A stretch of 25,393 nucleotides of DNA, from the IMG/VR virus record IMGVR_UViG_3300007708_000024, positions 1-25,393 of that record. One strand, given 5' to 3'. Shown here one piece after another: positions 1 to 21,313 of the stretch. The position numbers and the translations under genes were made by a program. Within the stretch, counting starts at the first letter, position 1; each line of letters starts with the position of its first letter. The notes beneath the pieces are model-generated. The model saw only the letters and a list, made by a program, of their open reading frames with translations. It did no database searches and was not told the DNA's origin. The stretch comes from a virus.

Positions 1-243
1 AAGCATTACGAATACAGCCGTTTGATTGAAGATATTGTCGAAGCCCAAGCCTTGAACAGCTTGCGTAACTTCTATACCTCTGACGCTGGTTATGCTCTGG
101 CTAAACAAGTCGATACTGACTTGGTTCAGTTGGGTCGTTCAACCAATGGCGGTGCTGGTACAAATGCTTATGCAACTGGTGCGTTTATCGGTGGTGATGG
201 TACTACTGCTTATGTTGCCGCAAACAACAATGAGTCAGCATTG
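1..243 (+). pseudogene. Inverted fragment of a second major capsid protein gene
   Basis: The plus-strand frame open from base 1 reads as the interior of a major capsid protein. It begins KHYEYSRLIEDIVEAQ and 44 of its first 50 residues match the minus-strand MCP beginning at 971; later surface-loop residues (NGG..FIGGDGTT) diverge. Similarity ends around NNNESAL, near base 243; the remaining plus-strand frame to 333 is antisense to the minus MCP and is not real protein. The start lies outside the window. Because the two copies differ at many synonymous and some coding sites, this is not a simple foldback of one molecule. It is either a second capsid gene or allele joined head-on by rearrangement, or a chimeric assembly of two related phages. 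It is certainly capsid-derived; its biological reality is uncertain. Confidence 0.75.
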
Positions 244-971
244 CTGGAAGTGAACACAGGGATACCATACAGGTTGCCGATTTCACCATTGCGGATAGCA
301 TCGCCATTACCGACAAATGCTTGTTCGGTGTAACGAGCCAGACCCATCAAAGTGTTGCGGCTTGATGGAGGGATGATGAAGAAACGATTGTCCATAGGAG
401 TATCGTTGTCATCCAAACGCTGAATGGTTCTACGAATAGCCGAATCAGTCAGAGCAGACGCATTACCAGTGTTGGTGTTTGCAGTGTAGTCAAAGGTAGT
501 TGTACCGTCACCGCCAATGAAACCAGCGTCATAACGAGCAGAACCAGCAGTGCCACCATTGGCTGAACGACCCAACTGAATCAAGTCAGTATCAACTTGA
601 CGAGCCAAGGCGTAACCAGCATCAGCAGTGTAGAACTGACGCATTGAGTTCAAAGCCTGTGCTTCGACAATATCTTCAATCAAACGGCTATATTCATAGT
701 GCTTGTTGATAGACACATTGACTTCAGACTCTGTAGCGGCAATCAAAGTGACTGCTGTTTCAGCGGCTTTAGCAGAAGCAGAACCACGAGTAGGTGCAGG
801 AATGTGAACAGTGTCACCTTTCTTGCCCTTGAAGTTCATCTTCATAACCAAGTTCGCAAGAACCAAGTTTTTCTTGTAGGCGGCTACGATTTCATCTGAC
901 CAAATTTCAGGGATGAATGTTGCGCCTGTGGTGGTAGTCACCGAGTTTGTGGGGGAAAATGATGTTGCCAT
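210..971 (-). CDS. Major capsid protein, C-terminus missing
   Basis: This gene encodes the main shell subunit of the phage head. It starts MATSFSPTNS with the Shine-Dalgarno sequence TTGGAG a few bases upstream, follows the scaffold gene, and has features usual in HK97-fold capsid proteins of environmental phages: an N-terminal segment with IPEIWSDEIVAAYKKN, then GDTVHIPAP, then an E-rich helix (SRLIEDIVEAQ). Genuine similarity appears to run to about GIPVFTSSNADS. The last residues before the stop (LLFAAT) are antisense to the plus-strand capsid fragment, so the natural C-terminus is lost at a junction near 232-243. At 253 residues it is shorter than the roughly 300-350 usual for such proteins. 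Family assignment rests on context and motif memory. Confidence 0.85.
   Translation of the reverse strand: MATSFSPTNSVTTTTGATFIPEIWSDEIVAAYKKNLVLANLVMKMNFKGKKGDTVHIPAPTRGSASAKAAETAVTLIAATESEVNVSINKHYEYSRLIEDIVEAQALNSMRQFYTADAGYALARQVDTDLIQLGRSANGGTAGSARYDAGFIGGDGTTTFDYTANTNTGNASALTDSAIRRTIQRLDDNDTPMDNRFFIIPPSSRNTLMGLARYTEQAFVGNGDAIRNGEIGNLYGIPVFTSSNADSLLFAAT
232..243. other. Capsid-capsid inversion junction
   Basis: The 12 bases GAGTCAGCATTG can be read both as the end of the plus-strand capsid fragment (ESAL) and, on the minus strand, as part of the truncated MCP (NADS). This short shared sequence marks the switch of strand. Microhomology of this size is typical of template switching during amplification, of short-homology assembly errors, or of illegitimate recombination. 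Confidence 0.6.
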
Positions 972-2920: not shown

Positions 2921-3093
2921 GCGTTGCGAAATGTGCGGTCTGACGGAATGTCAGCGACATCCACAATCTTGTAAGGCTTGCCAGCGGGAACATCCTTAGC
3001 GGCAATTTCCTCAATGGTTAAACCACACTCAGCGGCTGGAATGATGACTGCAACACCACCATCATCGTTTGGATAAATAATTCTTGAGTTCAT
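2902..3093 (-). CDS. Small fibre-adjacent phage protein
   Basis: This 63-residue acidic protein begins MNSRIIYPNDDGGVAVIIPA and ends ADIPSDRTFRNAWEYSE. The ending DRTFRNAWEY is a pattern I recall from small proteins that travel with the XkdW-like partner encoded immediately downstream, sometimes as one longer protein. It follows the fibre gene by 9 bases and has AAAGGAC just before its ATG. No enzyme motif is visible. A tail-assembly role is inferred from context. Confidence 0.6.
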   Translation of the reverse strand: MNSRIIYPNDDGGVAVIIPAAECGLTIEEIAAKDVPAGKPYKIVDVADIPSDRTFRNAWEYSE

Positions 3094-7781: not shown

Positions 7782-9041
7782 TTATATCCCCGAAATTACA
7801 TCTAGTGGTTGCCATTCATCTGAGTCATCTTCCTCAAAGTATGAAGTGACAGCAAGTTGATCGATGTATGACAAAGAGTCGGGTAAGTCATCATGTACAC
7901 CATTGGCAGGGAACATTAAGAGTTGGTCTTTGAATTCATCCCAATCTTCCTCAGAGTTCAGCACAATGCGCCCATGCTCAAACCGCCCTTGGAGACTCCA
8001 GATAATCCTGTCTGTCTTTTTCCTGTTGCCATGCGTTAAGTCAACTATGTGTGAATATACATTATTTTTCCGCATTAAGTCACTCAAATACGGCAAAACT
8101 GCATTTTTTAACGCTCCCCTCTCAATTCCAACTGCCAAAGGGCGGTATTCCCTCATTTTCAGCAGAATCGTAGCGGCTGTTTCCCTAATGTCCCACCGAC
8201 CAAAAGCAATCTCTTTGACAAACCACTTCCCATCATCTGTCACCTTAACCACAGAAATAGCTGTCTGATCTAGTCTTTTCTTGGAATTGGCGGCTTGTTT
8301 GGCAACTTCTTCAAATCCAGCCAAGTCCACAGCAATGTAGTAGCTTCCATATTCAGGCTCAACGCCATACTTCAACCATTCTTCTTTGAAGACATCACTC
8401 CCCGCATTGTCGAAAGAAGCCATATACTCTTGCTTGAAAGCGAAGCTCGAAAGGGTTTTCTTTGCGCTCTCGATTTCAGAGGGGTCTATCAGGGGGTTGT
8501 CTTTGGTGGTGAAATGCCAACTTTTCCAATCTTCATCGGATTCTGAGTTTCCAAGTTTGAAGATGTCATAGAAGAAGTTACGACCCTTGGGAGTACCGAT
8601 GAACATAGCCCGACCTTTTTTGTCAGACAGAGAAGCACGAATAACCTGTTCCCATGCTTCTGGTTTGATGTCGGCAACCTCGTCAAGCACAGCGTAGGTG
8701 AGTGACACTCCTCGCAAAGTATCTGGTCTATCCGCACCTCTAACATAGATTTTTGCTCCGTTTATCAGGGTGATGTCCATGTTATTGATGTGGCTAGACT
8801 GAATCACTTCTCTGCCCAACTCCATCAAGACATCCCAAATAATCTGTCTAGCTTGTCCATTGGTAGGCGCAACATACAGCACAGCAGAGCCAGCAGTACA
8901 TTGGAGTCCTTCAATCAGGAGGGTAACGGCTGAGAGTCGTGACTTACCGCATCTTCGACCAGCGGCAATGACTTTAAACCTTGTTTTATCACTAAAAACA
9001 ATTTGTTGCCAAGGTAACAAGCTAAAATTTAAATCAGACAT
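7782..9041 (-). CDS. terL: Terminase large subunit
   Basis: This 419-residue protein is the DNA-packaging motor and headful or end nuclease. The N-terminal ATPase shows Walker A A27-GRRCGKS-34, Walker B with YAVLDE ending at E121 and the coupling motif IGTPKG at 148-153. The C-terminal RNase H-like nuclease shows AVDLAG (D239), GIERG (E307) and HDDLPDSL (D384/D385). Its ATG overlaps the end of the upstream HNH gene (ATGTCTGA). The first ~25 codons are unusually AT-rich compared with the rest. A separate second copy of the first 13 codons lies at 9662-9624, upstream of the HNH gene, so the present start is a rebuilt one. All catalytic residues are intact and the protein should work. Confidence 0.95.
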   Translation of the reverse strand: MSDLNFSLLPWQQIVFSDKTRFKVIAAGRRCGKSRLSAVTLLIEGLQCTAGSAVLYVAPTNGQARQIIWDVLMELGREVIQSSHINNMDITLINGAKIYVRGADRPDTLRGVSLTYAVLDEVADIKPEAWEQVIRASLSDKKGRAMFIGTPKGRNFFYDIFKLGNSESDEDWKSWHFTTKDNPLIDPSEIESAKKTLSSFAFKQEYMASFDNAGSDVFKEEWLKYGVEPEYGSYYIAVDLAGFEEVAKQAANSKKRLDQTAISVVKVTDDGKWFVKEIAFGRWDIRETAATILLKMREYRPLAVGIERGALKNAVLPYLSDLMRKNNVYSHIVDLTHGNRKKTDRIIWSLQGRFEHGRIVLNSEEDWDEFKDQLLMFPANGVHDDLPDSLSYIDQLAVTSYFEEDDSDEWQPLDVISGI

Positions 9042-9564
9042 TGTGATCTTTCAAATACTGCATTGCCTTTAACAAGACATCTTGATTGTCCTTGAAAGAG
9101 CCTAATCCTGTGTTGCAGTTTTTGCAAAGTAACTTCCTTGTTTTTCCAGTTAAATGACAATGATCTACAGCTAACCTTGCTAGTTCCTTTGTCTTTGAAT
9201 GTACAAAAGTTTCTGGGTTATTACAAATAGCACATAAACCTTTTTGTTGTTTGTGCATCTGCTCGTAATCTTCGTATGAAAGACCAAACTTCCTTAAATT
9301 TGTTGTTCGTTGATATTTCTTTACCTTATCAGGATTGTTCTTTTTCCACAACAACGATGCAACTTCTAACTTTTCCTTGTTTTCTTCTTTATATTTTTTA
9401 AGTTGGACTTTAAGTTTGTCTTTTTGATCTACATAGCGTTTTGCATGGTATTTCTTACTGCAATCAATGCAATGATACTGAAAGCCATCCTTTTCTTTTT
9501 TTGCTTTATGGAAGCATGAAGTTGGCTTGTACTCAACACAGCTAAAGCAAAGTTTTGTTTCCAT
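9034..9564 (-). CDS. Endonuclease VII-like homing endonuclease
   Basis: This 176-residue protein has an N-terminal zinc knuckle (C6-x2-C9 and C32-x2-C35), a Lys-rich helical linker and a C-terminal endonuclease VII domain: C111-x2-C114, D134-H135-C-H137, C147-x2-C150, followed by NTGLGSFKDN. It separates terS from terL. Upstream (9576-9662) lies the 5' end of an older terL, and downstream its last codons overlap the start of the intact terL. This is the signature of a free-standing mobile endonuclease that inserted at the terL start while bringing, or rebuilding, a terL start. It is AT-rich relative to its neighbours. AAGGATGG precedes the ATG. A resolvase role in packaging is an alternative. 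Confidence 0.88.
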   Translation of the reverse strand: METKLCFSCVEYKPTSCFHKAKKEKDGFQYHCIDCSKKYHAKRYVDQKDKLKVQLKKYKEENKEKLEVASLLWKKNNPDKVKKYQRTTNLRKFGLSYEDYEQMHKQQKGLCAICNNPETFVHSKTKELARLAVDHCHLTGKTRKLLCKNCNTGLGSFKDNQDVLLKAMQYLKDHNV

Positions 9565-9662: not shown

Positions 9663-10089
9663 CTTTGCTTTCTATATCTTCTGCATCTATAGGGTTTTCA
9701 CCAATGACTACACCACCTATGCCTGAGATGGTGATGTTGACAGCGGAGCGTTGTTTTCCTTCTTTTTCAAACAAGGAGACAGGAAGCATTCTGTCCATAC
9801 AGAGTTTGAGTGCCGCCATTTGAGCAGGGTGTTCATCATTCATGGCAATCTCAACTGCCTTGTAGACAACATTAGAACCAGCACTGTTTATCAGGAGTTC
9901 TTTGAGTTCTTTGATTTTTTGTTGTTCAGTCTTGGGTAAGACGAGTGCCGCAGGGTTGTCTGCGTACTTTGATAAGGTCATCTTTCCTGTACCACGGGGG
10001 CGACCTCTTGGCATCGCCAAGTTGTCTTGTTCCTTCGGAGGACGACCCTTTTTCTTCAGGTTATCAGGAAGTGCATCTACAGCGTTCAT
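9655..10089 (-). CDS. Terminase small subunit
   Basis: This 144-residue protein is the likely DNA-recognition subunit of the packaging enzyme. Two AT-hook-like basic motifs occur near the N-terminus (KKKGRPPK at 12-19 and PRGRPRG at 28-34), fitting minor-groove DNA binding. They are followed by a helical region (TEQQKIKELKELLINSAG, then HPAQMAALKLCMDRMLP) that could form the oligomerisation core, and a short acidic C-terminus. It lies immediately before the original terL start, overlapping it. Sequence conservation of small terminases is poor, so the call rests on position, size and DNA-binding features. Confidence 0.75.
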   Translation of the reverse strand: MNAVDALPDNLKKKGRPPKEQDNLAMPRGRPRGTGKMTLSKYADNPAALVLPKTEQQKIKELKELLINSAGSNVVYKAVEIAMNDEHPAQMAALKLCMDRMLPVSLFEKEGKQRSAVNITISGIGGVVIGENPIDAEDIESKDV

Positions 10090-10289
10090 CTTTTATCCAG
10101 TTAGAGGAAGAAGTTGTTGGTGGCTTCCATAAAGCAGGATTGGGTTCAATTCAACAACAAACAAAATCCCACGGAGCTAAACCGTTTCCACCAACACGGC
10201 TGGTGACTATTACTAATAGTACCTAGTGACAATCCCCATGCGTCTTGATGTTGGTACTCACTTTACATCAAAAAGCGAGTCCACAACAA
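10090..10289. other. Non-coding leader before terS with inverted repeats
   Basis: This 200-base gap holds no convincing gene. A 9-base inverted repeat (TGTTGGTGG at 10115-10123, CCACCAACA at 10188-10196) encloses 64 bases. A hairpin lies at 10202-10223 (arms GGT.ACTATT and AATAGT.ACC, minus strand). At 10250-10263 is an operator-like AAGTGAGTACCAAC on the minus strand preceded by TGATGTAAAGTG, a string that recurs upstream of the next gene. Together these look like a structured leader and promoter/operator region for the late operon. Confidence 0.4.
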
Positions 10290-10574
10290 TTAAAGTTTTT
10301 TCCATTCTTCAAAAGACAGTTTCAAGGCATTAGGGTCACCAGCAGAACGCTCGTGGTTATATTGTGAGCGGCTATTTATCTCTCTTACCTTTTCAGCATT
10401 TTCATCTTTTGATTTTTTAATATCTGACATAACAGCACCTTGAATTGCCGCACCACCAAGGATTGAGCCTCCAATTACACCTATATCACTCAAACTGCTT
10501 CTATAGCCGCCACCACCTCCACCACCTTCAATTGGTGTAAGTTCATCATTACGCTTTTGAATACCTTTAGGCAT
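10290..10574 (-). CDS. Small Gly-rich protein, function unknown
   Basis: This 94-residue protein starts MPKGIQKRNDELTPIE, has a run of seven glycines, a hydrophobic Gly/Ala segment (IGVIGGSILGGAAIQGAV) that could be a weak membrane or fusion-type helix, and a charged C-terminus (DIKKSKDENAEKVREINSRS). Ribosome site AAAGGAAA lies just before its ATG. It is the first gene of the leftward late operon, ahead of terS. The Gly/Ala hydrophobic centre resembles small ejection or membrane-active virion peptides, but I do not recognise it. Confidence 0.6.
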   Translation of the reverse strand: MPKGIQKRNDELTPIEGGGGGGGYRSSLSDIGVIGGSILGGAAIQGAVMSDIKKSKDENAEKVREINSRSQYNHERSAGDPNALKLSFEEWKKL

Positions 10575-10596
10575 GATTTTCCTTTAGCAGAATTTG

Positions 10597-10618
10597 AAGT
10601 TAGCACACACTTTACATC
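10597..10618 (-). promoter_or_regulatory. Operator-like element before the late operon
   Basis: On the minus strand TGATGTAAAGTG is followed by TGTGCTAACTT. The same TGATGTAAAGTG recurs at 10258-10269 followed by AGTACCAAC. Both lie upstream of leftward genes (the Gly-rich protein and terS) and both overlap a copy of the AGTGAGYAC palindrome found elsewhere in the window, suggesting common regulation. Confidence 0.4.
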
Positions 10619-10758
10619 AGAATCAGATTCTTGTATAGTGGAGACAAACGGGGGCATCACCCACCCCTCTATGCGGTTGAGCCGACCAAGTAGGATAAGC
10701 GTAGTGAACCATGTAGTTCTTCAGTAAAGAGTAATCTTGAACGGGGCTGGTAGCGTGG

Positions 10759-10783
10759 AGAGATAGCACTGACAAGCATCTCT
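10759..10783 (+). other. Hairpin in non-coding region
   Basis: AGAGAT and GC pair with GC and ATCTCT around an eight-base loop with a single bulged A, giving an eight-pair stem. Nearby TCCTTT..AAAGGA (10807-10820) and CACCC..GGGTG (10825-10839) form further hairpins. None is followed by a T-run, so these look more like RNA structure than terminators. Function unknown. Confidence 0.35.
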
Positions 10784-10969
10784 AACTTAGTATAAACGAG
10801 AGGCTCTCCTTTAAAAAGGATTACACCCACACACGGGTGACTTTCCTATTCCGTCCTCTCCCCTAATCCAGATTACCTTATTGTGTCGTACAGTCTGATT
10901 TAGCTTTTCGTGTGCGTAGGAGGGTTCACAAATATTTACAACACCACGCATACCCCCTCCCCCCTATCA

Positions 10970-11050
10970 AAGTGAGCACTCACTTACAAGTGAGCACTCA
11001 CACACATAGAAGTGAGCACTAACTAACCTACCCAGTAAGCACTTACTAAC
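10970..11050. repeat. Array of four palindromic iteron-like repeats
   Basis: Four copies begin at about 10970, 10988, 11010 and 11033. The first is a perfect 7-base-arm palindrome (AAGTGAG-CA-CTCACTT). The others are AAGTGAGCACTCACAC, AAGTGAGCACTAACTAAC and CAGTAAGCACTTACTAAC. Spacing of 18, 22 and 23 bases is close to two helical turns, so dimers of a DNA-binding protein would sit on one face. Related single copies occur at 10250, 10597, 13141 (half) and 19907. This may be an operator array or a replication iteron cluster. Confidence 0.6.
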
Positions 11051-11145
11051 ATTCCACTTGATGCGATAAATATTATGTTAAGTCAATCAAGCATATAGGG
11101 GCTATGCACCATTATCCCTAGACCTGATAAGAATCCTATTCTAAA

Positions 11146-11334
11146 TTTCACAATGCGAAATGAAAACTATGTATTTCACGATATGGAATTGCACCTATAT
11201 AGTGCAGAGTGAATACTAACAACACCTAAACGGTGCATGATTTTATAATGTGAAATGCTGTGCACCATATTGGGTTTTCCACAATATGAAATTCTATATA
11301 AATCAATGGGTTATAGTGTCGCACAATATGGCAT
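11146..11334. repeat. AT-rich imperfect repeats (CACAATATG type)
   Basis: Related elements appear at 11146 (TTTCACAATGCGAAAT, itself an inverted repeat), 11174 (TTTCACGATATGGAAT), 11276 (TTTCCACAATATGAAAT) and 11319 (TCGCACAATATGGCAT), plus an inverted version near 11261 (GCACCATATTGG). They directly precede the plus-strand GP88-like module and probably form its control region. The element is different from the AGTGAGYAC family. Confidence 0.45.
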
Positions 11335-11392
11335 GAAACATGCATAGTATTATTGTCCGATATTGGACTACTCTTGAATAGGTGTTGATAAA

Positions 11393-12151
11393 ATGAAAAA
11401 TCCGTACAAAGCAATTTTAAAAAACCTAGATTTAACCTATAAGACAATTCTAGGGGAATCCTCTGCTAAGACCGTCAAAGGGGAAAAGATAGGTTATTTG
11501 ACGGGCATTGTGTATTTAGTCCCTGATAATAAGCTTTGTCCCTTAGCTATCTCTGCGGGATGCATCACGGGATGTTTAGCTACTGCGGGACGGGGTGCAT
11601 TTAATTCCGTACAGTTAGCCCGTAAAGCTAAGACCGATTATTTTTACAATCATCAAAAAGCCTTTTTATTGTCTTTATGTGCTGACATTTGGACATTGTC
11701 AAATAAAGCTAAAAAATTAGGTCTTATTCCTTTGATCCGTCCTAACGGTACATCCGATATTCCTTATGAGAATATAGTAGTGCTGGACGAAAAAAATATT
11801 TTTCAGCTATTCCCTACAGTTCAATTCTATGATTACACTAAACACCCGTCCCGTAATTTGACAGGGAAAACGACAGGTAACTACGATCTAACCTATTCAT
11901 TCTCTGCAATTACCCCTAAGCCTATCAGCATCAAAGGGTTAACTAATCCTAATAATTCCCGTGTAGCTGTCGTTTTTCAAAGCCAAATCGATATCCCTAA
12001 AACCTTTAGATCATGGGATGTAATTGACGGGGATAATTCTGACGTACGTCATATTGAACCTAAAAACGTAGTAGTAGCTTTATACGCAAAGGGTAAAGCT
12101 AAACGGGAAAATAACGGATTTGTTCAGATCAAAGGGGTACATTATGCATAA
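11393..12151 (+). CDS. GP88-like conserved phage protein
   Basis: This 252-residue protein follows the pattern I recall for phage gene product 88-like proteins (Pfam GP88, also seen as DUF7227-type): a Cys cluster C-P-x6-C-x3-C at LCPLAISAGCITGCLATAGRG, then FNSVQLARKAKTDYF, then IRPNGTSDIPYE, then QLFPTVQFYDYTK, and later NYDLTYSFS. Biochemical function of the family is not established; the conserved cysteines and polar motifs suggest a metal or nucleotide site. It heads a short plus-strand module. Codon use is unlike the rest of the window (many GGG, ACG and CGG codons), hinting at separate origin. Its stop overlaps the next start (ATGCATAA). Confidence 0.75.
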   Translation: MKNPYKAILKNLDLTYKTILGESSAKTVKGEKIGYLTGIVYLVPDNKLCPLAISAGCITGCLATAGRGAFNSVQLARKAKTDYFYNHQKAFLLSLCADIWTLSNKAKKLGLIPLIRPNGTSDIPYENIVVLDEKNIFQLFPTVQFYDYTKHPSRNLTGKTTGNYDLTYSFSAITPKPISIKGLTNPNNSRVAVVFQSQIDIPKTFRSWDVIDGDNSDVRHIEPKNVVVALYAKGKAKRENNGFVQIKGVHYA

Positions 12152-12347
12152 ACAAAACAAATTCAATACATTATCCGAAGCTTTAGAATCGGAAAATATC
12201 TCTCATATGTGGGATAGTAGACCGTTAGCCTATGATCAAACCCTGTCGTTAACCTATCAGGACGGGACTAAATACGGTCATTATGTGTCGATTTATAGGG
12301 ATGAACGGGGCTTATATGAGCGGCCTATTCATTATTCCCGTAATTAA
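12144..12347 (+). CDS. Small protein coupled to the GP88-like gene
   Basis: The true start is the ATG at 12144, which overlaps the previous stop by eight bases and has AAAGGGG upstream; the open frame extends further back but that part is antiphase coding of the GP88-like gene. The 67-residue product (MHKQNKFNTLSEALESENIS...) contains a tyrosine-rich C-terminal half (TKYGHYVSIYRDERGLYERPIHYS). There is no known motif. Tight coupling suggests it works with, or is regulated with, the GP88-like protein. Function unknown. Confidence 0.6.
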   Translation: MHKQNKFNTLSEALESENISHMWDSRPLAYDQTLSLTYQDGTKYGHYVSIYRDERGLYERPIHYSRN

Positions 12348-12437
12348 AAGCATAGACTGTAAACCCTTAATTTAGGGGTTTATGGCCTAGGTTTTCACAA
12401 TCTAGGGTTTTCCATCAATCAACTAATAGGTGTAAAT

Positions 12438-12677
12438 ATGACAATCGAAAAACGCTCAATTCGTGCTATTGCTTTAGATATCCGTAAAGACTGGGTAAAA
12501 GTTAACTATGCGGCTAAGCCCTATCTCGATGCTATGCTTGAATTAGATTCTATAAATGATAAGTATTATGAAGATTCTGCAAAATCCGTAGTGCTCTATT
12601 TTTTGTCCAATGCTTCAAGCTTTAGGGGTGAACGGGCTAAAGCATTGAAGACTGAATTAAAAGCTTTGGGAGCATAA
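12438..12677 (+). CDS. Conserved-type small phage protein, function unknown
   Basis: This 79-residue helical protein contains RAIALDIRKDWVKVNYAAKPYLDAM, DSAKSVVLYFLSNASSFRGERAKALKTELK, a pattern I have seen in small early proteins of many tailed phages without a known role. The ribosome site AGGTGT resembles that before the GP88-like gene (AATAGGTGTTG). The 90-base gap before it holds an imperfect AAACCC/GGGTTT hairpin without a T-run. No catalytic motif is visible. Confidence 0.65.
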   Translation: MTIEKRSIRAIALDIRKDWVKVNYAAKPYLDAMLELDSINDKYYEDSAKSVVLYFLSNASSFRGERAKALKTELKALGA

Positions 12678-12679
12678 AC

Positions 12680-12763
12680 ATGGAAAAAATCGACCAAATT
12701 ATTGTAGGTGTATCGCTTACCGGTTTTTTTTGCTTGATGCTAATCATTAGCATATGGGGGTAA
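12680..12763 (+). CDS. 27-residue membrane peptide
   Basis: A very small frame starts two bases after the previous stop: MEKIDQIIVGVSLTGFFCLM and seven more residues, ending IWG. It is a short charged start followed by one hydrophobic helix long enough to cross a membrane. Spacing and placement inside a compact operon support translation, but no independent evidence such as a strong ribosome site is visible. Possible roles include membrane localisation of module proteins or host interference; none can be shown. Confidence 0.45.
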   Translation: MEKIDQIIVGVSLTGFFCLMLIISIWG

Positions 12764-12765
12764 AA

Positions 12766-13092
12766 ATGAAATACTTTTATGTTCGTCATCAGCACTATTC
12801 AGAAAATACATCAGTCTACGGATACGGAGATTTTCCCGAGCAAATAGCATTTTTGGCCTTAATTGTCGAAGCAGATACCCTAAGAAAAGCGCAAAATAAA
12901 GTTAAAAAGGTTTATCCTAGGGTACATTTCAATGCGAATAGCCCGGTAAATACGCATTTTTTACTGCCAGAAAATGATAGGTTTTTGGACTATTACATCA
13001 AATTACCCGAAAACCACGATTCTAGATTATCTCCGGCTAATCAGGAATTGCACAATCGATGCATTCAATCAATGGAAAAGGCTATAGCATGA
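12766..13092 (+). CDS. Hypothetical phage protein
   Basis: This 108-residue protein begins MKYFYVRHQHYSENTSVYGYGDFPEQ; a start four codons upstream exists but would overlap the membrane peptide, and GGGGGT lies at good distance before the ATG at 12766. The middle, EADTLRKAQNKVKKVYPRVHFN, is basic and helical. The C-terminus includes NQELHNRCIQSMEKAIA. No motif I can name. It is the last sizeable gene of the module before the terminator. Confidence 0.65.
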   Translation: MKYFYVRHQHYSENTSVYGYGDFPEQIAFLALIVEADTLRKAQNKVKKVYPRVHFNANSPVNTHFLLPENDRFLDYYIKLPENHDSRLSPANQELHNRCIQSMEKAIA

Positions 13093-13139
13093 TATACGCC
13101 ACAATAGCCCTACTGCTAAAAATAATACTCAGAAAATAG
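13089..13139 (+). CDS. Possible 16-residue hydrophobic peptide
   Basis: The ATG overlaps the preceding stop (ATGA), and the product MIYATIALLLKIILRK is entirely hydrophobic with a basic end. It ends 22 bases before the terminator. ATGA coupling and composition favour translation, but a frame this short can arise by chance. Confidence 0.25.
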   Translation: MIYATIALLLKIILRK

Positions 13140-13161
13140 TTAGTGAGTACTTTTCAAAATT

Positions 13162-13182
13162 AAGCCCTTCGGGGCTTTTTTT
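13162..13182 (+). terminator. Rho-independent terminator of the GP88-like module
   Basis: AAGCCC-TTCG-GGGCTT is a perfect six-pair stem with a stable UUCG tetraloop, followed by a run of T. It ends the plus-strand transcription unit and lies where plus and minus genes converge; the hairpin could also act weakly on the opposite strand. Confidence 0.9.
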
Positions 13183-13247
13183 ACGCCTACCTATACCCTA
13201 CCATAGACCTACCTATAAAAATCGATTCTAGCCACTTTTAAACCCGT

Positions 13248-13457
13248 TTAATCGATATCATTGTCACCTGTTAAGCATAGCCCTATCCGGTTTATATCGT
13301 GCTCAGGTCTTAACCCTAGATTGTAAAAGTGACTAGCCCATTGCAAAGCCACTCTAGCCCCTACTTGATCCCTGCCATCACCCAGCGTTTTAAGGATCAA
13401 CATTTCGTCACTAGTGAGCGTTAAGTAGATGTTATTCGGGTGTTTTTTGTGCGCCAT
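13248..13457 (-). CDS. Small protein downstream of ruvC, function unknown
   Basis: This 69-residue protein (MAHKKHPNNIYLTLTSDEMLILKTLGDGRDQVG...) starts inside the ruvC-like gene, overlapping it by 26 bases. The pattern YLTLTSDEMLILKTLG followed by ARVALQWASHFYNLGL could be a strand-helix-helix unit like a ribbon-helix-helix regulator, but this is a guess. It is the last gene of the leftward replication operon. Confidence 0.55.
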   Translation of the reverse strand: MAHKKHPNNIYLTLTSDEMLILKTLGDGRDQVGARVALQWASHFYNLGLRPEHDINRIGLCLTGDNDID

Positions 13458-13914
13458 GTAGGGTATGTCTTAGGTATTCTGCGATCAATAGGGCTTCCGC
13501 TTTGTTTATGTCCTTTTTGAGCTTTAATTTGGCTTCAGGCCATAGGTATCGCGCCATGTCCAGCGATTCATTCTTATCTGCTGTCAAGTGAAAATGCTTT
13601 TTCCATCGTTGGGGTGTGACTAAATGCACAGGGTATCGGGTCAAATCACATACTGCCGAAATGACCCCTACTGCCCGACCAAATGTAAAAGTGCTGGAAA
13701 CCCCTTGGCTTGGCATACTATGCACCTGTTCCATGCATATCTCTGCGCCTTCTTTTGGGTCAACAATGCTCAGAATTCGACTTTTAAAGACCAAAGCCAA
13801 TATGTGCTTGTCTTTATGCTCAATGTCAAACGCTTCTAAGTAGTTTCCCTCATGGTCGACAGCACCTAGTGCGCCTGATACAGCTCCGGGGTCTATGCCC
13901 AAAAAAATAGTCAT
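13432..13914 (-). CDS. RuvC-like Holliday-junction resolvase
   Basis: This 160-residue protein has the RuvC/RNase H-fold acidic residues: GIDPG with D8, MEQVHSMPSQG with E62, and KKDINKAEALLIAEY with D135 and E140. The block SSTFTFGRAVGVISAVC between them is also typical of phage RuvC-like nucleases. It would resolve four-way or branched DNA during replication and before packaging. Its ATG overlaps the end of the upstream HNH gene (ATGA). The HNH gene itself starts with MIYIGID, which looks like the start of another ruvC copy, so this start is probably a rebuilt one. All acidic residues needed for catalysis appear present. Confidence 0.88.
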   Translation of the reverse strand: MTIFLGIDPGAVSGALGAVDHEGNYLEAFDIEHKDKHILALVFKSRILSIVDPKEGAEICMEQVHSMPSQGVSSTFTFGRAVGVISAVCDLTRYPVHLVTPQRWKKHFHLTADKNESLDMARYLWPEAKLKLKKDINKAEALLIAEYLRHTLHGAQKTPE

Positions 13915-14447
13915 AAAGATATACTTTCCGCATCTTGTATGCGCTGTTGTCTGGTTTTGCGCTTTCCTCTTTTGACATCAAAAATTAAATGTCTTGGCAA
14001 AGGATAAAGCAAATTTTCTAATTGTTTGAGCTTCATTTCAGCATTATTTTTTATCGCATCTTGTATTTTTACAATGTCATCATCTTGATAAATTGTGTTT
14101 GGATGTGTGTTTCCAGCTTGCCAAGTGCCATTTTTTAACTTGTCTCTTATGTTGTTTTTTTGTGTGTCAACTCGCAAATTGGAATAATGATTGTTTAAGA
14201 CATTGCTATCAATGTGACAACAAACCATGTTTTTTGGAATTTCTCCATTCCAAAGCATATAAACAAGCCTATGAATAGCAAAATTTGTTTGCTTTCCAGT
14301 AAAACCAATCCGTAACGAAACTTTTAGATACCCATCTTTATCAGAATAAGGTTTAATTGTTTTTGTTCCATATATTTCACCATCTTCACAAACCCAGTAT
14401 TTGTGAAACTGTTTCCATTCCCTGTTATCAATCCCGATGTAAATCAT
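13911..14447 (-). CDS. HNH homing endonuclease fused to a ruvC start
   Basis: This 178-residue protein has the HNH_3 pattern: EWKQFHKYWVCEDGEIYG at the N-terminus, AIHRLVYMLWNG with H59-R60, then CCHIDSNVLNNHYSNLRVDT with H78, N85/N86 and H87, and a basic C-terminal DNA-binding part (LIFDVKRGKRKTRQQR). The first eight residues, MIYIGIDN, precede the usual domain start and look like a RuvC start (GIDPG type), so the gene appears to have inserted after codon 7 of an older ruvC, using its start and ribosome site. It is followed by an intact ruvC overlapping by ATGA. It is AT-richer than neighbours. Confidence 0.85.
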   Translation of the reverse strand: MIYIGIDNREWKQFHKYWVCEDGEIYGTKTIKPYSDKDGYLKVSLRIGFTGKQTNFAIHRLVYMLWNGEIPKNMVCCHIDSNVLNNHYSNLRVDTQKNNIRDKLKNGTWQAGNTHPNTIYQDDDIVKIQDAIKNNAEMKLKQLENLLYPLPRHLIFDVKRGKRKTRQQRIQDAESISL

Positions 14448-14713: not shown

Positions 14714-15516
14714 GCCTGTCTTCCTAAAAGTGCTCTCATTCGTGCCAGAACTTCAGGGTTTGGTGGTGCTGTCTTCAGCCTGTCTTCATCCAGTTTGACA
14801 AGGGCAGGGTCACGCTGTGAGCTTGAGGGTACGGTCTGATGGACAATATCTGCCTTGTTGAACAAGGGTTTGGCAATGTTCTGGTTTCTTACCCAATTGC
14901 GCCATGTGGCTTGCCAATCCAACTTCACACCTGCCGCACCTGCTTTTGCTACCCAATAGTCTTTGAACGAGTCAAACACCTTTTGAGGGTTTAAGTCTGG
15001 TCGTTCTGTTTGGCAGAATTCTGTCCAAGAATCAGGTAACTCAAAATCTGTTGAAAGGCGTGAGCCTTTTGTTCTTTGTTTTGTTGGCGGTTCATCAATA
15101 CTATGGTTATTGGTTATTGGTTCTTGGTTATTGGTTGGTTGCACGACCGTTGAACATGAATCCAACGACCGTTCAACGACCGTTGAGTTTCTGTTGAGTG
15201 CTCTTTTTGCGGCTGATGCTTTGCCAGCTTTTGATGCTGTTTCAAGTTGTTGTTTATAAAAGGAAATTTCTTTATCGCATCTATTGTGATGCCATTCGTC
15301 ATTTCGTAATGTGAAAAACATCCCCAAGATTCCGTTTAGAGCATCTTGTTGGTCACGAGCATTGACTTTTATTGATAACTCGAAAATTGAGTTCGGCAAT
15401 GGATGTTCAGTATCGTAATAAAGCCAAAGAAGTTTGAGATAAATCCCCACTTCCTCATTTGTTAAGAAAGAAGTGTCTTTGATAAAGTCACCAATGTGAT
15501 GTTGGTAATAGTGCAT
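14710..15516 (-). CDS. DUF1376-type phage replication protein
   Basis: This 268-residue protein is a likely replication initiator or helicase-loader-type protein. The N-terminal DUF1376 (YdaU-like) domain, MHYYQHHIGDFIKDTSFLTN to ~90, shows the family pattern; residues ~110-140 are a low-complexity linker (STVV.., PTNNQEPITNNHS); the C-terminal part has LPDSWTEFCQTERPDLNPQKVFDSFKDYWVAK then WQATWRNWVRNQ, typical of phage primosomal/replication proteins. The frame is open to 15600, but the ATG at 15516 begins the known domain and has GGGA upstream. The linker DNA contains phased repeats resembling an origin. It lies at the head of the leftward replication genes. Confidence 0.85.
   Translation of the reverse strand: MHYYQHHIGDFIKDTSFLTNEEVGIYLKLLWLYYDTEHPLPNSIFELSIKVNARDQQDALNGILGMFFTLRNDEWHHNRCDKEISFYKQQLETASKAGKASAAKRALNRNSTVVERSLDSCSTVVQPTNNQEPITNNHSIDEPPTKQRTKGSRLSTDFELPDSWTEFCQTERPDLNPQKVFDSFKDYWVAKAGAAGVKLDWQATWRNWVRNQNIAKPLFNKADIVHQTVPSSSQRDPALVKLDEDRLKTAPPNPEVLARMRALLGRQA
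15105..15184. repeat. Origin-like repeat cluster inside the replication gene
   Basis: Three copies of ACGACCGTT lie at 15143, 15165 and 15176 (spacing 22 and 11 bases, i.e. whole helical turns), next to a 36-base AT-rich run of GGTTATT/TTGGTT direct repeats at 15105-15141. They fall in the DNA for the protein's linker, the same arrangement as the lambda-type origin inside its initiator gene. Origin function is inferred. Confidence 0.45.
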
Positions 15517-20373: not shown

Positions 20374-20834
20374 GCAACTAAGCCATTGAGGTAGGTGGTC
20401 TTACCAGCTATCTTGGTGGCAGTCAGTTCTTGTTTCTTGAGGTTGTTTGGGTCATAGCTGACATGAACCCAACCAGAATCAGGGACTCCTTGGGTATAGA
20501 ACTCTAAGATCAATTGCGTGTAGTCGAGGTTGTCCATAATCCACTGAGCCAGATCAGCATTGGCAACACCAACTATCTCAATGTCAGCGGCTTGGCCTTT
20601 GCAGTGGTCAGAGGTTTTAGAACCTCCTACAGCGGCATTGGACTCAGGACTGCGATAACCTGAGTTCACAGTCACAGACTTTCCAAAGTGTTCACGAACA
20701 GGTTGAAGAACCATTTCGCAAAGAGTTTTCAAGTTCTCTAATGCCTCATCATCAGGTGTATTGTCTAGACCCAAACGAGTGGCAGTGTCTGACTTGGTGA
20801 GTTCTTTCAGGGTGAAGTTGGCTGATAAGTTCAT
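20370..20834 (-). CDS. Endolysin, M15-type peptidase
   Basis: This 154-residue protein is the likely endolysin, cutting peptide cross-links of peptidoglycan. The M15 zinc-peptidase pattern is clear: VNSGYRSPESNAAVGGS, SDHCKGQAADIE with zinc ligands H77 and D84, and GWVHVSY with H124; E111 may be the catalytic acid. There is no signal peptide, so release depends on the holin-like protein encoded upstream. It overlaps the Rz gene by ATGA. Confidence 0.9.
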   Translation of the reverse strand: MNLSANFTLKELTKSDTATRLGLDNTPDDEALENLKTLCEMVLQPVREHFGKSVTVNSGYRSPESNAAVGGSKTSDHCKGQAADIEIVGVANADLAQWIMDNLDYTQLILEFYTQGVPDSGWVHVSYDPNNLKKQELTATKIAGKTTYLNGLVA

Positions 20835-21313
20835 GGTTTTCCTTTCAAGGTTTGGTAGATGGATTCGTAGGCTTGCTGACAGGCTGTGAGTTGTCTGATT
20901 GCTTCATCTCCTGAGTCGGTGATGGAGACAAGAGATCGAGCAGTCTCTGCGTCAAGTTCGGCTCTCTCTTGACCGCTATCTCCGCTGGCAGGGGCGGTAT
21001 CTGTGGTGGTTTGTACGGGGCAGTAGGTTGCTTTGACAGGAATCCGCAACCGTAAAGCACCAGAATCAATGTCAGCATTACGCTTTTGTTGAACAAGTTT
21101 TGCATCTTGATTTGCTTTCTGAAGTTTAGTGGCTTGGGTTTGGATTGCTGAGACTAGGATTTGTTCTTTCTGCCTAGCCTCTGCATTGAGTTTGGCAATC
21201 TCAAGTTGCTGACGAGTAATCTCATCCTCTGAGCCTTTCCAATACCCACTACCAAATGCACTCAGCACCGCCAAAACGATGCCAAGAAGCACATAAGGGT
21301 TGAAGATACTCAT
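20831..21313 (-). CDS. i-spanin (Rz-like)
   Basis: This 160-residue protein starts with an inner-membrane helix (PYVLLGIVLAVLSAFGSGYW) followed by a long periplasmic coiled coil (DEITRQQLEIAKLNAEARQKEQ...), as in Rz. It would disrupt the outer membrane with the lipoprotein encoded in its own second reading frame. Its gene lies between the holin-like and endolysin genes, the standard place. Confidence 0.88.
   Translation of the reverse strand: MSIFNPYVLLGIVLAVLSAFGSGYWKGSEDEITRQQLEIAKLNAEARQKEQILVSAIQTQATKLQKANQDAKLVQQKRNADIDSGALRLRIPVKATYCPVQTTTDTAPASGDSGQERAELDAETARSLVSITDSGDEAIRQLTACQQAYESIYQTLKGKP
20845..21105 (-). CDS. o-spanin (Rz1-like lipoprotein), nested in Rz
   Basis: This 86-residue frame lies wholly inside the Rz gene in another phase. 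It starts MQNLFNKSVMLTLILVLYGC, a signal sequence with lipobox L-Y-G-C, and the mature part is Pro-rich (PTAPYKPPQIPPLPAE), both hallmarks of Rz1. It is an outer-membrane lipoprotein that meets Rz in the periplasm. Nested genes of this kind are an established spanin arrangement. Confidence 0.85.
   Translation of the reverse strand: MQNLFNKSVMLTLILVLYGCGFLSKQPTAPYKPPQIPPLPAEIAVKREPNLTQRLLDLLSPSPTQEMKQSDNSQPVSKPTNPSTKP

Follow-up and report, generated by a model that had tools for sequence, protein, structure and literature searches.

A six-gene operon between phage packaging genes and RuvC

The window analysed here is the whole of a 25,393-base virus record, IMGVR_UViG_3300007708_000024, from an uncultured tailed phage. 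We studied a plus-strand operon of six genes in it, which encode a GP88-family protein, three small proteins and two peptides of 27 and 16 residues, called p27 and p16 below. The operon is flanked by reverse-strand packaging genes and by a RuvC-like gene, likewise on the reverse strand. It opens with the GP88 gene (11393..12151, 252 amino acids), whose stop is overlapped by the start of a gene for a 67-residue protein of no family (12144..12347). These are followed by the gene for a 79-residue protein (12438..12677), by p27, a single-helix hydrophobic peptide (12680..12763, MEKIDQIIVGVSLTGFFCLMLIISIWG), by the gene for a protein of about 108-112 residues (12766..13092), the start of which is uncertain (ATG at 12754 or 12766), and by p16 (13089..13139, MIYATIALLLKIILRK), which begins in an ATGA overlap with the stop of the preceding gene. 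An intrinsic terminator-like hairpin with a T tail lies behind p16 on the same strand (13162..13184, stem 13162-13177).

The two peptides are conserved phage genes

To examine p16 in other phages, we searched with a degenerate DNA pattern of its first 13 codons, which set no condition on first base, length or stop but included the overlapping TGA. The pattern matched at least 120 viral stretches; the loci contained 189 matches, and after removal of 40 duplicates with identical contexts 149 non-identical sites remained. The start codon was ATG at 131 of these, TTG at 16, GTG at two and CTG at none, and a stop followed after 16-20 codons at all 149. The sites comprised 141 distinct DNA sequences encoding 63 peptides, with third positions that varied freely; for Ala-4 and Ala-7 all four alanine codons were in use. 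Free third positions together with a constant peptide character indicate that selection acts on the p16 protein, and by this comparative measure p16 is a conserved phage gene. We also noticed that Leu-8 was written as CTA in 94 of the 141 DNA versions, while Leu-10 used all codons. In 257 Gb of genomes the pattern matched four times: once in a 3.9-kb phage contig with RuvC adjoining, which lay in a metagenome-assembled genome, and three times with a CTG start or a 100-codon run-on, thus without a proper start or length.

p16 is a hydrophobic peptide throughout, with a core of 12-13 residues and a basic C-terminus. An amphipathic p16 was considered and dropped, as its hydrophobic moment was not above that of shuffled sequences. 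The second peptide, p27, had exactly 27 residues at all 42 non-identical sites, and p16 lay downstream in 32 of the 36 p27 sites with 1.6 kb of downstream sequence. The sequence-only reading of this DNA had pointed out two tiny hydrophobic peptides, of 27 and perhaps 16 residues, and both turn out to be conserved genes. Neither p27 nor the 20- and 26-residue forms of p16 had a family in Pfam or PHROGs, and a 20-residue p16-like query, which is short and insensitive, found no match among cultured phages at E up to 10. With p27, the cultured phages returned two matches at E 10 within a Streptococcus phage tail gene, which we took as chance.

The overlap with the preceding gene is a common feature of p16: at 109 of 148 sites the TGA overlapping the p16 start closed an open reading frame (ORF) of at least 25 codons, an ORF that the search pattern did not require. 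The proteins encoded upstream of p16 fell into 41 clusters. A terminator-like hairpin was found within 90 nt past the p16 stop at 110 of the 148 sites, mostly at a distance of 3-26 nt. Two contigs showed other arrangements. One (L005) carries two divergent operons that both include a p27 and a p16 copy (860-919 on the minus and 3027-3089 on the plus strand), which start from one short common region and of which a single one contains GP88. Another (L135) has two differing p16 genes at 199-1177, on the same strand and 650 nt apart, with a terminator after the second only.

p16 resides in a fixed slot with exchangeable cargo

The position of p16 relative to the phage backbone was largely constant. 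Among p16 sites with enough upstream sequence, 53 of 55 had a putative small terminase encoded on the other strand, 45 of 55 had terL and 18 of 20 had portal. The small terminase is labelled by position only, since the protein had no family match in Pfam or PHROGs; against cultured phages it had no match at E 1e-3. On the right of p16, RuvC was found at 66 of 130 sites. The slot between this terminase gene and p16 was compared in 90 cases (median length 2.7 kb), which gave 522 plus-strand and 154 minus-strand ORFs. These are mechanical calls, some of them surely spurious, and those of the plus strand formed 170 families, of which 70 occurred in at least two loci.

Representatives of the recurrent cargo matched GP88, the ArdC N-terminal domain (a family present in 9 of the 90 slots; representative E 4.1e-7), SprT-like proteins, DNA polymerase III beta, HNH and DUF7249. 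For 26 further recurrent families the searches of Pfam and PHROGs returned only DUF7222 (once), a weak NMD_SH3 match and eight PHROGs without description. As for the small proteins of the window, homologues of the 67-residue protein were found in 9 of the 90 slots, the 79-residue protein belongs to phrog_13953 (E 4.7e-20) and has 27 relatives in viral contigs, and the protein of about 108-112 residues belongs to phrog_25600 (E 4.8e-09) and has 11 relatives. Relatives of the 79-residue protein sit inside far longer proteins, of up to about 580 residues, on the larger contigs L102, L106 and L107, and the gene in the window may encode a free-standing domain.

A tree built from 89 small-terminase proteins was then used to map the slot contents. 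For the p16 type, 16 changes were required (mean of shuffles 42.4, minimum 35), for the GP88 state 32 (mean of shuffles 39.5, minimum 33) and for the last cargo family 60 (mean of shuffles 68.0, minimum 65). Of the 795 pairs of terminases that were at least 90% identical, 467 had the p16 type in common (33% over all pairs), 330 shared the GP88 state (36% over all pairs) and 77 the last cargo gene (7% over all pairs). p16 thus tracks the phage backbone tree, while GP88 and the gene in last cargo position change around it in a nearly random way.

Neither peptide is a GP88 partner

The sequence-only reading had described GP88-like proteins as widespread but without known role, for which peptide partners would be informative, and had proposed a survey of GP88 neighbours for the same small proteins. 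For this survey 80 of 331 GP88 loci were taken, ten of which were dropped for having less than 1.5 kb of downstream sequence, and p16 was sought in the remaining 70 with a model trained on sites whose DNA is absent from those loci. p16 was found in 59 of the 70, always on the same strand and 2-1215 nt downstream of GP88; the lowest match scored 17.8 bits, compared with 9.7 for the best of 57,037 decoys. A model trained on contigs that overlapped the test loci gave the same result. Within this phage lineage the survey was therefore positive.

The reverse comparison gave another picture. GP88 occurs in two forms, A (that of the window) and B, and among the 99 p16 sites with 3 kb of upstream sequence (50 of the 149 were dropped) form A was present at 40, form B at 17, both together at none, and neither on the p16 strand at 42. 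In a survey of form B, for which 80 of 104 loci were taken and 11 were dropped for short downstream sequence, p16 was found in 6 of 69, and all six belonged to the seven loci that were at least 89% identical to the query. Nine more distant GP88 loci, including that of Limnohabitans phage DC31, were scanned and contained no p16. Since p16 occurs without GP88, and form B and distant GP88 genes occur without p16, the proposed partnership does not hold: it is the slot to which the peptides belong, with GP88 as one of its exchangeable cargoes. A link of GP88 to plasmids was also considered and rejected (1 of 72,556 plasmid records).

GP88 may work like a radical-SAM protein

The GP88 protein of the window matched Pfam GP88 (PF17338) over residues 25-243 with E 1.4e-34 and 120.4 bits, above the curated cut-off of 24.4, and phrog_1617 with E 6.8e-54; form B also matched Pfam GP88 (E 4.6e-22). 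In form A the cysteines C49, C57 and C61 were invariant in 30 of 30 aligned rows, together with the motifs NGTSDI and FYDYTK, and in form B C44, C58 and C61 as well as C188, C197, C200 and C203 were invariant in 36 rows. When the profiles of the two forms were compared, the motifs lined up (E 0.017, probability 2.7%). Structure models had a mean predicted local distance difference test score (pLDDT) of 70.7 for form A and 92.7 for form B, and in the form A model the three invariant cysteines come after the first strand. Aligned with VIA-align, form A had spore photoproduct lyase as its top match (Z 6.1, 178 residues, 4.9 A), along with QueE, TYW1, RlmN and viperin, and 15 of its 16 best matches were proteins that we take to be radical S-adenosylmethionine (radical-SAM) enzymes. 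For form B the corresponding matches were a viperin-like protein (Z 5.7), BtrN (5.1) and lipoyl synthase (5.0).

Several results weigh against this likeness. The Z-scores did not exceed 6.1, Foldseek gave a best E of 8e-3 for form A, with none at 1e-3 or better for either form, and the radical-SAM rows of form B were mixed with chitinases, unrelated barrels and STAS domains. A profile search of solved structures returned none for form A and one ribosomal-protein match (E 0.39) for form B, and form A had no radical-SAM match in Pfam at E up to 1. The classical radical-SAM motif is C-x3-C-x2-C, whereas the spacing is C-x7-C-x3-C in form A and C-x13-C-x2-C in form B. Given this non-canonical motif, we do not file GP88 as a member of the radical-SAM family and say only that it may work like one; it is a fair hypothesis that GP88 is an iron-sulphur enzyme acting in the manner of a radical-SAM protein.

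Control region and terminator

Two kinds of palindrome were found around the operon. The consensus ATTTCACAATATGAAAT had, with up to three mismatches, seven matches at five sites in the window, where 0.28 are expected, and four of these sites lie at 11145..11292, upstream of GP88 (11145, 11173, 11240 and 11276). The fifth, with three mismatches, lies inside a primosomal-protein gene (15301-15317). The second palindrome, AGTRAGYACT, occurred five times in the window against 0.24 expected; four copies occupy the distal control region (10971..11043) and the fifth lies at 13142..13151, behind the p16 stop but ahead of the terminator. Relatives have right-flank copies too. In their slots plus 400 nt we counted 79 copies of AGTRAGYACT (0.286/kb) and outside 4 (0.007/kb), and for the ATTTCACAATATGAAAT-like palindrome 46 in slots (0.191/kb) and 19 outside (0.032/kb), counts in which close relatives enter more than once. 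The ATTTCACAATATGAAAT-like sites were often paired at 20-31 nt, with at least two in 16 of 90 slots; they are not kept in every relative, and lay directly upstream of GP88 in 3 of 22 loci checked. We read the ATTTCACAATATGAAAT palindrome as a candidate operator and AGTRAGYACT as a candidate flank site or one related to replication or packaging. A promoter scan of 10500-13500 gave 10 sites against 9.8 expected by chance, hence no excess. The description of this DNA as an accessory operon with a self-contained, repeat-rich control region upstream and a terminator downstream was borne out.

Codon use of the cassette

The genes had also been said to show foreign codon use. The synonymous-codon chi-square of the cassette was 129.9, compared with a mean of 66.1 (standard deviation 24.7) for equal-sized blocks of other window genes, a value reached by 9 of 226 overlapping blocks, which places the cassette in about the top 4%. 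GGG made up 29% of its glycine codons (9% elsewhere), CGG 21% of arginine codons (6%) and ACG 15% of threonine codons (4%), and TCC and CCG were over-used as well. Of the tetranucleotide windows listed, the five with the largest deviation start at 10001-12001, on or adjoining the cassette and its control region, and in composition no other part of the window deviates as much. The unusual codon use is thus real, but it is moderate and does not separate gene by gene, as several other window genes deviate equally from the pooled usage. In relatives the GP88 genes (n=80) had a mild GGG excess, at 27% compared with 17% for the remaining ORFs of their loci. Because of this overlap between single genes and the mild excess in relatives, codon use by itself argues weakly for the word "foreign", and a foreign origin of the cassette is only suggested.

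Other features of the window

The reverse-strand genes of the window include those for the major head protein, portal, large terminase, endolysin and an Rz-like spanin, and a Sak-like annealing protein and a RecE-like exonuclease are encoded on the plus strand at 18-20 kb. The spanin gene (20831-21313, minus strand) has a lipoprotein-like ORF embedded in another frame (20845-21105), as in the Rz/Rz1 arrangement. Endonuclease VII/HNH-like genes at 9034-9564 and 13911-14447 may encode homing-type nucleases, and a third candidate at 2265-2687 comes from reading of the sequence alone. At the left end, one part of the major head protein (LIEDIVEAQALNS...) is encoded twice, at 22-333 (plus) and 210-971 (minus), in inverted stretches of close but not identical sequence; the assembly is likely to have joined two related phages here.

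Discussion

The explanation we favour, and consider probable, is that the operon is an exchangeable accessory operon in a fixed slot, with a resident and probably membrane-active micro-peptide. The slot would be transcribed as one operon from the palindromic control region and closed by the terminator. Its cargo, namely GP88 of form A or B, the ArdC N-terminal domain, SprT-like, sliding-clamp-like and HNH proteins and many orphan small proteins, is freely exchanged between phages, perhaps through homologous exchange at the conserved flanks, aided by phage proteins of the Sak/RecE type, and would most likely deliver accessory functions early in infection. p16 is resident and kept by amino-acid selection, and would be translated through the start-stop overlap with whichever gene precedes it. 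We propose that p16 is needed whatever the cargo, and that this is why it stands at the end of the operon, coupled to the last cargo gene. p16, and likewise p27 where that is present, would probably insert in the host inner membrane, p16 as a short helix with a basic end, and serve the phage in early infection. A more ambitious version, in which a whole phage lineage keeps p16 as the indispensable closing gene of a swappable operon for counter-defence, co-translated with any cargo as a universal host-membrane effector or sensor, and the cargo includes GP88 as a new radical-SAM-like class in two interchangeable versions, is tentative and in our opinion rather unlikely to hold as a whole.

Some observations speak against an exchangeable slot with a resident membrane peptide. 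RuvC is missing on the right at half of the p16 sites; at 38 of 148 sites the 90 nt after p16 contain no terminator and another ORF follows directly, so that p16 is not always last; and 11 of the 70 GP88-selected loci have no p16. The cargo families rest on mechanical ORF calls, and the p16 type labels are coarse, with just 467 of 795 close terminase pairs agreeing in type. As for the membrane, a core of 12-13 residues is short for a transmembrane helix, and the hydrophobic moment does not exceed that of shuffled sequences.

Among the other explanations, a role of p16 and p27 as anti-host toxins or lysis helpers, which would depolarise the membrane and be fired together with the accessory genes, is unlikely. 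Type I toxin peptides such as Ibs and TisB are short and membrane-depolarising, and the two peptides, with 16 and 27 residues, are hydrophobic and basic-ended; however, the window has a full lysis set of endolysin and Rz-like spanin at another place, and the hydrophobic moment of p16 is unremarkable. We consider it improbable that p16 is a regulatory leader-like peptide, whose translation ahead of the hairpin would control readthrough via the nascent chain on the ribosome, so that the conserved sequence would be due to this action instead of to a free peptide in the membrane. The terminator that follows closely at 110 of 148 sites, the fixed short length and the translational coupling would suit such a peptide. 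In the window, however, no plus-strand gene stands directly behind the terminator, where the genes are convergent instead, the 38 sites without such a terminator do not fit, and a hydrophobic peptide with a basic tail is closer to a membrane peptide than to known arrest motifs.

The remaining two explanations concern the unit of exchange. That the operon is a single transferable unit, in which p27 and p16 act together with GP88, would agree with p16 in 59 of 70 GP88-selected loci and with the foreign composition, but 42 of 99 p16 loci have no GP88 on the strand, GP88 genes of other lineages lack p16, and the histories of p16 and GP88 differ on the backbone tree, which makes it very doubtful. 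The least probable explanation is that p16 is a homology anchor only, with the 3' end of the operon kept for recombination and the coding appearance incidental: p16 does lie at the border of variable cargo and conserved flank, but 141 distinct DNA sequences with free third positions encode a peptide of constant character, and from clade to clade the DNA itself does not stay identical.

Genes of sixteen residues are below the usual annotation limits, and the comparative evidence shows p16 to be a conserved phage gene. A search for p16 leads to the whole slot together with its cargo, in which candidate genes for counter-defence and takeover can be sought, and makes the function of GP88 and the role of a short membrane-like peptide testable questions. 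In our literature search, the peptide strings, "GP88-like" and "PF17338" were not found in any paper. Accessory slots are a known kind of region, to which the resident micro-peptide is an addition; new here are also the two mutually exclusive GP88 forms in one slot and their radical-SAM-like reading. The small-ORF catalogue of PMC11364881 takes ORFs from 30 nt, and p16 may lie unnamed in it.

Compared with known systems, GP88 is like radical-SAM enzymes (spore photoproduct lyase, QueE, viperin) in its three invariant cysteines and in its best structural matches, and form B also in having a second, C-terminal cysteine group; it differs in the cysteine spacing, the missing Pfam radical-SAM match and the modest Z-scores. 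The slot resembles phage accessory and anti-defence islands and T7-type early regions in its fixed place and in the turnover of small genes, and thus shows the fixed position with exchanged gene content by which accessory islands are recognised. It is also like anti-defence islands in carrying the ArdC N-terminal (anti-restriction) domain and SprT-like cargo, for which the anti-defence role is putative, and unlike them it ends in a resident 16-residue peptide gene. In length and hydrophobicity p16 and p27 are comparable to IbsC, TisB, KdpF and IlvX, from which they differ in being without a Pfam or PHROGs family and in being tied to a phage cargo slot.

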